Origin: Clostridia bacterium
Lineage (GTDB): Bacteria > Bacillota > Clostridia > UBA1212 > UBA1255
Assembly (NCBI GenBank): GCA_017620915.1
Contig: JAFZSK010000089.1
Coordinates: 1 to 41,455, forward strand
Direction of reading: 5' to 3'
DNA: 41,455 nt
Under the pieces are notes generated by a model that searched no databases, was not told the DNA's origin, and worked only from the letters and a program-made list of their open reading frames with translations. The translations under genes and the position numbers were made by a program. Shown piece by piece: positions 689 to 4,388 of the stretch; position 1 is the stretch's first letter, and each line of letters starts with the position of its first letter.

Positions 689-1498
689 TCACGGCAGTGT
701 TTTAAATACGTACGTCAGCAGGATCACGCCCGCGGTGTACAGCAGGAATACGAACAGCGCAATCAGGTCGTCTTTGCCGAAGCGCAGCACGCGGAACTTC
801 GTACGGCCTTTGCCGCCGCGGTAGCAGCGCGCATTCATGGCATTGGCCAGCTCGTCCGCCCGGCGCCACGCGCTGATGAACAGCGGGATCAGTACGGGGA
901 TGTAGCTTTTGACCTTCTGTGTCAATTTTTTGCTGTCAAAATCCGAGCCGCGCGCGGTCTGCGCCTTCATTATACGGTCGGTCTCGTCGGCGAAGATCGG
1001 GATGAAGCGGAGGGCAATGCTCATCATCATTGCCGCCTCGTGCGCCGGGAAGTGCACGATCTTGAGCGGGCTCATCAGCGATTCGAGGCCGTCCGTGAGG
1101 TTGACCGACGTGGTGGTGTACGTGACCACCGACGCGCCGATGACCAGCATGATGATGCGCAGCGCCATTTTCGTGCTGAAAATTATGCCGTCTTTGTAAA
1201 TATGCAGGAACTTCCAGGACCAGAGCAGGTCGTGGCCATGATAGAAGAACAGGTTGATCACAAATGTCACGCCGATCACGAACAGCACCGCGCGAATGCT
1301 CCGGAGCACGTATTTGGGCGAGATGCGGGCCGCCGCGAATACCAACGCCAGGAACAGCGCGGTCAATGCGTACGCGGTAAACGATTTGATCAGCAGCACC
1401 AGCACCATGAACGCCAGCGTGCCCAGCAGCTTGGTGCGCGGGTCGCAGCGGTGGACAATAGTATTTCCGGGGATGTATTGACCGAAGGTGATCCTCAT
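689..1498 (-). CDS. ecfT: EcfT, transmembrane subunit of an energy-coupling factor transporter
   Basis: A 269-residue polytopic membrane protein, the scaffold that links the EcfA ATPases to interchangeable vitamin- or metal-binding S components. Hydrophobic segments lie at about 24-58, 67-86, 111-128, 160-171, 198-212 and 245-265. The two conserved X-Arg-X coupling motifs are visible as ARG at 182-184 and ARC at 223-225 (within NARCYRGG), on the cytoplasmic coupling helices. The ATG overlaps the stop of the fused ecfA as ATGA, so translation is probably coupled. No S component is adjacent, so this looks like a shared (group II) energising module. Length is normal for the family. Confidence 0.95.
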   Translation of the reverse strand: MRITFGQYIPGNTIVHRCDPRTKLLGTLAFMVLVLLIKSFTAYALTALFLALVFAAARISPKYVLRSIRAVLFVIGVTFVINLFFYHGHDLLWSWKFLHIYKDGIIFSTKMALRIIMLVIGASVVTYTTTSVNLTDGLESLMSPLKIVHFPAHEAAMMMSIALRFIPIFADETDRIMKAQTARGSDFDSKKLTQKVKSYIPVLIPLFISAWRRADELANAMNARCYRGGKGRTKFRVLRFGKDDLIALFVFLLYTAGVILLTYVFKTLP

Positions 1499-3615
1499 TG
1501 ACCGCTCACCTCCGCCTCATGCGCCCCGTTGTCCGCGGGCAGGTCCCGGCCCAGCAGCGCCAGTATCTCGTTGACGCCGTCCTCCACCGAGTAGATCTTG
1601 CGGGAGATGTGCACGTCCGGCAGCGCTTCGTCCAGCCGGTGGAACAGTTTGGACAACTGCGGCACCGTAAGCCCCATTTCCTCCAGCCGCGCTTCGTGCT
1701 CGAATACGTCCGCCGGTTTGCCGAACAGTTCCACGCCGCCGTGGGCCATCACCAGCACGCGATCGCATAGCCGCGCCACGTCGTCCATGCTGTGGGAGAC
1801 CAGGATCACGGTGTTGCCGTTTTCGCGGTTGAGCCGGCGGCAGATGCCGAGGATCTCGTCGCGCCCCGCCGGATCCAGTCCCGCCGCGGGTTCGTCCAGC
1901 ACGAGGATGCCCGGCTGCATGACCAGGATCCCGGCGATGGCAACGCGCCGCTTCTGTCCCCCGGACAGGTCGTATATGGATTTTTCGCGCACTTCGGCAG
2001 GGTCAAGTCCCACAAGCCGGAGCGCTTCGTCCACGCGTGCCGCGGCCTCTTCTTCGGTCAATTTATCGTTCCGGATCCCGAACGCCACGTCTTTGGCCAC
2101 GGTGGCCTCGAACAGCTGGTACTCCGGATACTGGAACACCAGGCCGACACGCCGACGCATGGCTTTTACGTTGGCGCCCGCCATCTTCTCGCCGCCGATC
2201 AGCACTTCGCCCGCGCCGGGTTTCAGCAGCCCGTTCAAGTGCTGAACCAGCGTAGATTTGCCGCAGCCGGTGTGCCCGATAATGCCCAAAAACTCGCCGT
2301 CGCCCGCTTCAAAAGTAATATCTTCAATAGCTTTTTTCTCGAAGGGCGTGCCCGGTCCGTACGTGTACGACAGGCCGGCGGCGGCAACCGAATTCGCCCC
2401 TTCCCTGTACACATACGGTGCGTGTGCCTGCTCCCGCGCCTGTTCCCGCGCCTCCATAGCCGCCGCGCTGAACCGCTCCGCTTTTGCACAGGGGTCTGTC
2501 CCTGTGTTCAAAAGTTTAACGAGCTCTGCCTGCGCCTCGTCGATGGTGATCAGGTCGCGCCGGACGTTTACGCCGGCATCTGCCAGCGCCTCCAGCAGCG
2601 CTGTAACGCCGGGCACTTCCAGCCCCCAGCTGCGCATTTTGGCCGGCTCCGAAAACAGCTCCCGCGGCGTACCGGACGCCACGACCAGCCCGTCATCCAC
2701 CACCACAGCGCGGTCGCACTCCGCCACCTCGTCCATATGATGCGTTATATGTACAATAGTTATTCCATACGTTTTATTCAGGTCCGCCGCGACTCTCATC
2801 ACTTCGCGCCGCCCCACCGGATCCAGCATCGCTGTTGCCTCGTCCAGCACGATGCACTTCGGGCGCATCGCCAGTATGCCGGCAATCGCCACCCGCTGCT
2901 TCTGCCCGCCGGACAACATATGCGGATCCGTCTTGGCCAATTCTCCGATGCCTACCGTTTCAGTGGCTTCCGCGATGCGCTCCAGCATCTCCGGCCGCGG
3001 CACGCCCAGGTTCTCCAGCCCGAACGCCACGTCTTCTTCCACGGTGGCGCCGATGATCTGATTGTCCGGATTCTGGAACACCATCCCCACCCGCGAGCGC
3101 ACTTCCCATTCCATGCCGCCCTCGGAGGTGTCAATATTGTCCACCACCACGGTCCCAGTCGCCGGCAGATACAGCGCGTTCATCAGTTTGGCCAGCGTTG
3201 ACTTGCCCGAACCGTTGCGCCCGATGACGGCAACGAACTCGCCGCGCTTTACCCGAAGGTCAATGCCCTTCAGCGCCTGCACAAGTTTTACCAGCTCCGG
3301 TTCCGGCTCTTCGGCCGCTTTCGCAGTTTTGCCGGACTTGGCGTTTTTTCTGGGCTTGGAATCTTTTTCAGGTTTAGCGTCCTGCTCCGGCTCGTCTTCC
3401 TCCGCGACCTCATACGCAAAAGTAACGTTCCGACATTCGATAATATCCGCCGGATCGCACGCTTCTGTCACGGTCTCAGAAGCACACGCTGACGCTGCGG
3501 CTTCCGATACGGACGCTGACGCCACGGCTTCTGATACAGACGCTGACGCCTGCGCCGCGCTTTGCTCTGCCGCGTTCTCCGCGCTATTCGCTTTTTTCCT
3601 GCGTTTTTTGAACAT
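1495..3615 (-). CDS. ecfA: Fused EcfA1-EcfA2 ATPase of an ECF transporter
   Basis: Two complete ABC ATPase domains in one chain of 706 residues (ATG at 3615). Domain 1 has Walker A GRNGSGKST at 132-140, Q-loop QNPDNQ at 181, signature LSGGQ at 234-238 and Walker B CIVLDEA with E259. Domain 2 has Walker A GHTGCGKST at 447-455, LSGGQ at 550-554 and LVLDEP at 571-576. It powers uptake through the downstream EcfT. Most bacteria encode the two ATPases separately. Oddities: an Ala/Ser-rich N-terminal leader of about 55 residues with a duplicated 9-residue unit, and a Lys/Glu-rich insert at about 71-108 inside the first strands of domain 1. An in-frame TTG at 3717 is less likely, because it overlaps the -35 hexamer of a good promoter. 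Confidence 0.93.
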   Translation of the reverse strand: MFKKRRKKANSAENAAEQSAAQASASVSEAVASASVSEAAASACASETVTEACDPADIIECRNVTFAYEVAEEDEPEQDAKPEKDSKPRKNAKSGKTAKAAEEPEPELVKLVQALKGIDLRVKRGEFVAVIGRNGSGKSTLAKLMNALYLPATGTVVVDNIDTSEGGMEWEVRSRVGMVFQNPDNQIIGATVEEDVAFGLENLGVPRPEMLERIAEATETVGIGELAKTDPHMLSGGQKQRVAIAGILAMRPKCIVLDEATAMLDPVGRREVMRVAADLNKTYGITIVHITHHMDEVAECDRAVVVDDGLVVASGTPRELFSEPAKMRSWGLEVPGVTALLEALADAGVNVRRDLITIDEAQAELVKLLNTGTDPCAKAERFSAAAMEAREQAREQAHAPYVYREGANSVAAAGLSYTYGPGTPFEKKAIEDITFEAGDGEFLGIIGHTGCGKSTLVQHLNGLLKPGAGEVLIGGEKMAGANVKAMRRRVGLVFQYPEYQLFEATVAKDVAFGIRNDKLTEEEAAARVDEALRLVGLDPAEVREKSIYDLSGGQKRRVAIAGILVMQPGILVLDEPAAGLDPAGRDEILGICRRLNRENGNTVILVSHSMDDVARLCDRVLVMAHGGVELFGKPADVFEHEARLEEMGLTVPQLSKLFHRLDEALPDVHISRKIYSVEDGVNEILALLGRDLPADNGAHEAEVSGQ

Positions 3616-3682
3616 CTCTGCCGTCGTGCTTCCGTTTCGGTCAATCTTAAACAGTCCCGCGGCGATATCGCTCCGGGCCGTT

Positions 3683-3712
3683 CTTATAATATTAACATTA
3701 TTTGGCGGACAA
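3683..3712 (-). promoter_or_regulatory. Sigma-A type promoter for ecfA-ecfT
   Basis: On the minus strand, TTGTCC (3712-3707) and TATAAG (3688-3683) are separated by 18 bp. Transcription would begin near 3676 and the ATG at 3615 would follow a leader of about 60 nt. I saw no riboswitch-like fold in that leader. Confidence 0.55.
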
Positions 3713-3716
3713 ATCA

Positions 3717-3803
3717 ATCAAATTACTTGGAAGGGCTCTACTCCAAAAAACGTAATTGATTTGGACAAGCGAACCGGAGTTTGGCTGATGCCGGGCGCCT
3801 TCT
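3717..3803 (+). repeat. Bulged hairpin plus GGCGCCTTCT tail
   Basis: ATCAAATTAC (3717-3726) pairs with GTAATTGAT (3752-3760) with one unpaired A, and an inner stem TTGGA/TCCAA sits inside. About 33 bp further on is the tail GGCGCCTTCT at 3794-3803. The 15 bases TGCCGGGCGCCTTCT at 3789-3803 are identical to 255-269 in island A. Confidence 0.5.
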
Positions 3804-3837
3804 CGAAGCACTCGATTGCCCCTTCGGGACCCAAAAG

Positions 3838-3887
3838 TCAACGATTTTCGTAGATTTTGCCCAAAATCGTTGAACTTGGCGCCTTCT
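3838..3887 (+). repeat. Hairpin plus GGCGCCTTCT tail
   Basis: TCAACGATTTT (3838-3848) pairs perfectly with AAAATCGTTGA (3863-3873) around a 14-nt loop. Extending outward needs one unpaired base (AGTCAAC against GTTGAACT). Four bases after the stem comes GGCGCCTTCT at 3878-3887, nearly the same spacing as units 1 and 2 of island A although the stem sequence is unrelated. Confidence 0.65.
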
Positions 3888-3930
3888 TTAGGCATTTCAA
3901 AGCCGTCGGCGGCTTCTGAACGGTCTCGAA

Positions 3931-4002
3931 GTTAGACGATAATCGGCCTGACAGGCCAAAATCGTTGAACTTTTCTGAAAATACATCAGAAAATGAGCGA
4001 GA
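3931..4002 (+). repeat. Hairpin followed after 19 nt by AAAATGAGCGAGA
   Basis: GTTAGACGATAATCGGCC (3931-3948) pairs imperfectly with GGCCAAAATCGTTGAAC (3954-3970) around a TGACA loop. After exactly 19 nt comes AAAATGAGCGAGA (3990-4002). The right arm contains AAAATCGTTGAAC, identical to 3863-3875. Confidence 0.6.
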
Positions 4003-4025
4003 ACGCCAAAAAAGTTCAACGATTT
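3959..4025. repeat. 16-bp perfect inverted repeat
   Basis: AAATCGTTGAACTTTT (3959-3974) is the exact reverse complement of AAAAGTTCAACGATTT (4010-4025), separated by 35 bp. The arms also take part in the neighbouring hairpins, so alternative pairings are possible. No T-run or coupled gene suggests a terminator. Confidence 0.8.
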
Positions 4026-4085
4026 CTGGCAGGCTTGTCTAAATTCGTTGAACTATTCAAAAAACACTTCGAAAAATGAGCGAGA
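4014..4085 (+). repeat. Bulged hairpin followed after 19 nt by AAAATGAGCGAGA
   Basis: GTTCAACGATTT (4014-4025) pairs with AAATTCGTTGAAC (4041-4053) leaving one unpaired base. After exactly 19 nt comes AAAATGAGCGAGA (4073-4085). Geometry matches the preceding unit. Confidence 0.65.
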
Positions 4086-4272
4086 GCTAAGGCTGTACTC
4101 ACTCTGCACGAAGGTAATCCAAAAACAAGCGGATTATTGTTACGATTTCGGAAGTAGAGCCACTTGGAAAGAATTAGGTTTACATCGCTTCTCGCTCGTT
4201 TTTCGGGTTTAAATTTCACACGGACCCAGCAGATTGCTTTTTTTCGAATTTTGCTATGTCGATTTTGATCAT

Positions 4273-4347
4273 TCTCGCTCATTTTAACCACGTAATATGA
4301 TGGTCAAAACACAGCAAAATCTTCCATATGGCGTTTTGCTATGTTTT
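4273..4347 (-). repeat. Reverse-oriented hairpin plus AAAATGAGCGAGA unit
   Basis: On the minus strand, a hairpin formed by 4347-4334 and 4319-4306 (13 of 14 bases pair; arms AAAACACAGCAAAA and TTTTGCTATGTTTT) is followed after 20 nt by AAAATGAGCGAGA (4285-4273). This is the same layout as the two plus-strand units but with a different stem sequence. Confidence 0.6.
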
Positions 4348-4378
4348 TCACTCGTGCAAAACAATTTAAAGTGACGTT

Positions 4379-4388
4379 AGAAGGCGCC
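4379..4388 (-). repeat. Inverted copy of the GGCGCCTTCT tail
   Basis: The plus strand reads AGAAGGCGCC, the reverse complement of the conserved tail found at 260, 345, 3794 and 3878. A GC palindrome, GCGGCC/GGCCGC with a 5-nt loop, lies at 4421-4437. Confidence 0.6.

Follow-up and report, generated by a model that had tools for sequence, protein, structure and literature searches.

The hairpin repeats in the window (the whole stretch of 41,455 nucleotides analysed here; it is contig 113 in assembly G000, which totals 2.57 Mb) are the cargo of miniature transposable elements (MITEs), a point missed by the earlier sequence-only reading of this DNA. Arrays of these repeats form the interiors of the elements. 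We propose that such interiors are moved in trans by ISL3-type transposases and that their palindromes act as helix-phased duplex DNA sites for a putative dimeric protein, and we put the probability of this reading at roughly 0.62.

The window holds two such elements, at positions 147–681 (island A) and 3733–4161 (island B). The elements have terminal inverted repeats and no coding capacity, occur in many copies, and present a target duplication and an empty site. Island B is a MITE of 429 bp that carries TTCAACGATT palindromes between the inverted ends GGCTCTACTCC...GGAGTAGAGCC. Comparison of the ends placed its left terminal inverted repeat, GGCTCTACTCCAAAAAACGT, at 3734–3753 on the plus strand and the right one, GGCTCTACTTCCGAAATCGT, at 4142–4161 on the minus strand. 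The element is flanked by two copies of an 8-bp target duplication, ACTTGGAA (3725–3732 and 4162–4169), which match each other at 8/8 positions, and a 90% identical copy of the element lies elsewhere in the window genome. The corresponding site is empty in genome G005, where the flanking phosphatase and ABC transporter genes are almost adjacent. Island A is a complete MITE of ~535 bp with the inverted ends AGCTCTGCTCATGATTTCGT ... GCGAAATCGAGAGCAGAGCA; its alignments with at least four other copies run exactly from 148 to 680, and several more copies share one end. It is absent in genome G003 beyond a 98% identical ecfT gene, and the next gene there differs. Positions 1498–3717 of the window contain one long frame with two ABC ATPase domains (an EcfA-like fusion) that adjoins a CbiQ/EcfT gene.

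Of the six other genomes of the genus, five contain the ends of island B (one of the five has just a single match, with three mismatches), and across the genus common ends enclose arrays of differing stem families. No GGCTCTACTCC end was identified in genome G002. Target duplications match fully around two elements only, island B and an element on contig C290 of G003 (locus L199), where AAATACCGG is repeated at 9/9 positions; they match at 6–7 of 8 positions around several other elements and are decayed or absent in others. A second type of terminal repeat, GGCTCTTTTCCTGATTCCGTGAA, surrounds a palindrome array in G003 (L065, 6165–6703), with a target duplication of 7/8 positions. Comparison of the array neighbourhoods identified no recurrent gene, mobile genes included, beside the arrays.

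The repeat unit is mostly 83–85 bp long and is composed of one palindrome (a 12-nt arm, a centre of ~14 nt and a second 12-nt arm) and one conserved tail. The palindrome measures 38 nt in most stem families and 37, 39 or 40 nt in a few, and about twelve stem families adopt this single common geometry. The tail spans ~34 nt and consists of 2–4 nt, GGCKCCTTCTC, about 7 nt and AAAATGAGCGAGA; the units in the window retain one half of it. The sequence-only reading had described two alternative tails, corresponding to GGCGCCTTCT (tail 1) and AAAATGAGCGAGA (tail 2). Their conservation and their fixed distance from the stems held up, but not their status as alternatives: in intact units of G003 the palindrome is followed by GGGCGCCTTCTCNGAGTTTAAAATGAGCGAGAGCC, which contains tail 1 plus tail 2, so the two are halves of one tail, of which many units have one half only. 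In the fetched loci the stem-to-tail distance is 0–4 nt for tail 1 and 16–22 nt (mode 20) for tail 2, and a palindrome with at least 10/11 pairs accompanies 50/196 tail-1 matches and 44/135 tail-2 matches, compared with 12/600 random positions. AAAATGAGCGAGA occurs in 44 copies in the window genome (reversed control 0) and GGCGCCTTCT in 93 (47 for its control); the two motifs co-occur in arrays of this genome and of the same-genus loci fetched.

In island A, the motif search located tail 1 at 260–269 (unit 1) and, 85 bp beyond, at 345–354 (unit 2), and tail 2 at 500–512, all on the plus strand. The parts of island B lie on the same strand, beginning with tail 1 of the first unit at 3794–3803. 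Palindrome 1 (3838–3873) is followed 4 nt on by tail 1 (3878–3887), whereas a gap of 19 nt separates both palindrome 2 (3931–3970, imperfect) and palindrome 3 (4014–4053) from the tail 2 that follows (3990–4002 and 4073–4085, respectively). The centres of the three palindromes are 95 and 83 bp apart. Positions 4190–4388 on the minus strand are a piece of a second, probably older element of the CATAGCAAA family, recognised by its tail motifs and by covariance-model matches at 4294–4345 and 4209–4260. This piece comprises tail 1 (4388–4379), a palindrome (4345–4308, within a stem previously given as 4347–4306), tail 2 (4285–4273, 20 nt on from that stem), a further palindrome (4260–4223) and a tail-2-like sequence (4202–4190), with palindrome centres 85 bp apart. 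The sequence-only reading had placed four of these stems and their distances to the tails correctly, and the four units fold more stably than shuffles (z −2.7 to −4.3). The folding energies of island A units are mostly no better than those of shuffles.

Further copies in related genomes, as anticipated, were found by covariance model and by tail matches in genomes of the same genus. The model, built without any G006 sequence, matched 76 sites in G000, 54 in G003, 38 in G006, 18 in G001 and 5 in G004; it matched nothing in G002 or G005 and gave no more than one weak match in any of 51 more distant genomes. In G002, arrays of 83-bp units (L075, L076, L078 and L080) have AAACGCCC palindromes of their own and a tail similar to the one described above. 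A pattern search for tandem tail 1 retrieved real arrays from the rumen MAG RUG12823 (G003) and one array-like match in RUG12588. Candidate arrays outside the genus yielded no clear case, most matches to this pattern being chance in GC-rich genomes, and no arrays were identified in the viral contigs searched. Among the genomes searched, the arrays are confined to one genus. In G003, repeated GCGGCCG-N-CGGCCGC palindromes lie just outside several arrays (L062, L063 and L067); they carry AGAAGGAGC, which is tail-1-like on the other strand, and possibly represent another unit family.

The stems change in both arms while geometry and tails are kept, as had been observed from the window alone. We aligned 33 units, drawn from four to five stem families, without gaps; 94.2% of the cells were paired, a percentage that is biased upward because units were chosen by one arm plus tail and their length was set for best pairing. 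Eight of the 11 stem pairs were changed on both sides, and 0/500 shuffles reached these values or the covariation score; sliding the pairing partners abolished the signal. When the arms of seven family consensus sequences were permuted, the observed arrangement was the only one of 5040 to reach the observed pairing. Because units from the same genome share descent, independent covariation events are few, approximately one per family.

Neighbouring palindromes are separated by whole helix turns. Their centre spacings cluster at ~63, 74, 84, 94, 105 and 116 bp, corresponding to whole multiples of 10.5 bp, with longer spacings at 137, 148, 157, 168, 178 and 199 bp; the window contributes the 95, 83 and 85 bp given above. 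With equal spacings merged within each family, 31 spacing events from 12 families gave a mean resultant of 0.89 at 10.5 bp, and 0/20,000 jittered sets were as high, although many spacings share descent and the events are not all independent. The mean cosine was 0.895 after removal of sums of shorter spacings (20 events) and 0.886 after removal of the 82–87 class as well (11 events). The period was first seen in 46 spacings and then tested on later-fetched loci. There, spacings outside 83–85 were 31.5, 73, 75, 94.5, 106.5, 115, 136, 147, 148 and 168, with exceptions to the whole-turn rule at 26, 153.5 and 192; without the 84 class, this small set of 17 spacings gave a resultant of 0.41. A functionless MITE satellite, in which slippage and gene conversion alone keep unit length and symmetry, would be consistent with the near-identical 84-bp unit arrays of G003 and G001 and with a site common to G004 and G001 that holds one unit in the former and two in the latter. 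Slippage, however, leaves the whole-turn spacing differences across several families unexplained, and we regard such a satellite as very unlikely.

The arrays are also phased in their A/T tracts. Runs of at least four A or T show a sharp 10.5-bp period, present in most families separately (10.4–10.55), and the value for tract pairs at 10.5 bp is 0.41–0.42, compared with 0.015 for shuffles and 0.02 for coding DNA; other intergenic DNA gives a weaker signal. Within the window by itself the tracts are only modestly phased, 15/1000 shuffles being as high. Relative to the palindrome centres, the tracts are located at approximately −43, −21, −10, 0, +10 and +41. Both the period and this placement around the centres could reflect curved DNA; the phased tracts would then bend the element, and its palindromes would have arisen incidentally through inverted duplication and arm-to-arm repair. 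Strong intrinsic curvature was considered and set aside: by wedge-angle prediction, curvature is only slightly above shuffles (60/73 arrays). Moreover, the arms change outside the tracts yet remain paired. We consider bending an improbable basis for the arrays.

The sequence-only reading had taken the units for a structured RNA or a single-stranded DNA substrate, an interpretation that the present evidence does not support. Wobble pairs occupy 2/363 cells of the 33-unit alignment, there is no strand bias of arrays relative to genes, 9 being opposite and 7 the same, and 11 of the 31 arrays with two flanking genes lie between divergent genes. Taken with the whole-turn spacing and the 10.5-bp A/T tracts, these observations argue for sites on double-stranded DNA, since a function in RNA or on a single strand predicts neither the spacing, the scarcity of wobble, the absent strand bias nor the divergent placement. 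If the units were transcribed as a terminator, stabiliser or regulator, selection on RNA pairing would keep the stems, in line with their covariation and with the good folding of several units; the tail halves of full units are also able to pair as a second hairpin. Structured transcripts are common among MITEs (PMC3049150, PMC10969869), which also speaks for this explanation. The stems, however, are without a following U-run, and an Rfam search returned no match, in agreement with the earlier remark that no named family is known with this layout. An RNA role appears unlikely.

We also considered a system like that of REP sequences and RAYT, in which a Y1 (HUH) transposase would recognise the units as hairpins of single-stranded DNA. 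The window genome encodes a single RAYT-like Y1 transposase (L168 1465–2253, on contig C76), others occur in the genus, the REP layout is likewise a hairpin plus a conserved tag, and the arms of island A show a constant one-base asymmetry. Like our units, REP/BIME sequences are numerous intergenic palindromes with a conserved tag (PMC2817692, PMC3733652); unlike them, the units here stand in direct order within an element with inverted ends, have tail halves of 10–13 nt and are unlinked to Y1. No units lie near any RAYT gene, and RAYT/Y1 was rejected as a partner because the hairpins beside those genes, where present, differ from the units. In sister genomes, GGGGACAG-type hairpins flank several of the RAYT genes and form a separate repeat system. 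G003, a genome 70% complete, is without a Y1 gene yet has the most tail-2 copies, and the elements have inverted ends and target duplications instead. Recognition by a Y1 enzyme seems highly improbable.

ISL3-family insertion sequences and their MITEs have GGCTCT ends and 8-bp target duplications, features shared by the elements described here. In G001, a DDE_Tnp_ISL3 match (PF01610, 6.8e-63) ends ~35 bp from GGCTCTACTCCCATTTTCGT (L227); the transposase adjoins a MITE-type end at one side only, the contig stopping before the other end. The annotated ISL3 element ISAtc2 has GGCTCTTCG ends, an 8-bp duplication and TTCGTCTT/TTCGTCTC beside its ends. No complete autonomous ISL3 copy was identified, and the transposase-bearing copy of G001, unlike the window MITEs, shows no visible interior palindrome array. 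Its end (L227 1414–1462) holds TTTTTATACC, which has a 9-mer in common with the island A arms, a match that may be due to chance. No ISL3 transposase gene was detected in the window genome, so either the elements there may be old or the assembly may lack the gene; mobilisation in trans by an ISL3-type transposase is what these sequence similarities suggest for this genome. Two other transposases were rejected as mobilisers. The IS30 transposase on contig C8 of G006 has its own ends and only interrupts a MITE, 20 bp in from the MITE end, where the end of this IS30-like element was located (L204 1–159), and the transposase on contig C136 of G004 belongs to the Mutator family, an unsequenced gap preceding the MITE end.

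According to our preferred reading of helix-phased duplex sites, ISL3-family transposases would mobilise the miniature elements in trans through their GGCTCT... ends, generating 8-bp target duplications, and units would multiply through tandem duplication within the element. A putative dimeric DNA-binding protein would most likely occupy each duplex palindrome, and the bound dimers would align along one helix face, with palindromes whole turns apart and A/T tracts in phase. Such an arrangement, one dimer per palindrome on a single face, predicts phased palindromes as well as arms that change symmetrically. Because each element lineage has its own, symmetrically changed arm sequence, binding specificity may diverge while geometry stays. 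We infer a bound protein from these features, and any benefit would lie in spreading, gene insulation or element maintenance. More tentatively, it is possible that this is a mobile family with diversified helix-phased palindromic operator arrays, on which putative matching DNA-binding proteins assemble in register on one face.

The array elements are BOX-like modular MITEs, and their unusual feature is the helix-phased, covarying palindrome array. BOX of Streptococcus pneumoniae is a modular MITE of the form boxA-boxB(n)-boxC, in which the number of boxB modules varies (PMC3049150). Both are intergenic, have a variable middle module and a proposed trans mobilisation by an insertion sequence, and BOX likewise shows clusters, nesting and one middle module with different end modules (PMC3049150). 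In comparison with BOX as described, the elements here have different ends, a palindromic unit, ~12 alternative stem families and whole-turn spacing. The literature searched, with partial coverage, contained no report of helix phasing for BOX or of helix-phased palindrome arrays in MITEs. Resolvase res sites and plasmid iterons are repeated symmetric or direct sites kept in helical register. The arrays share this repetition in register; unlike res sites and iterons, they have no recurrent nearby gene, contain 1–8 sites and occur as dispersed copies.

Hairpin repeats of bacterial genomes are commonly interpreted as RNA or single-strand structures, whereas the spacing found here favours the duplex. 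The test for whole-helix-turn spacing is applicable to other repeat families. If true, the symmetric divergence of sites under a fixed geometry would constitute a natural record of change in DNA-binding specificity.
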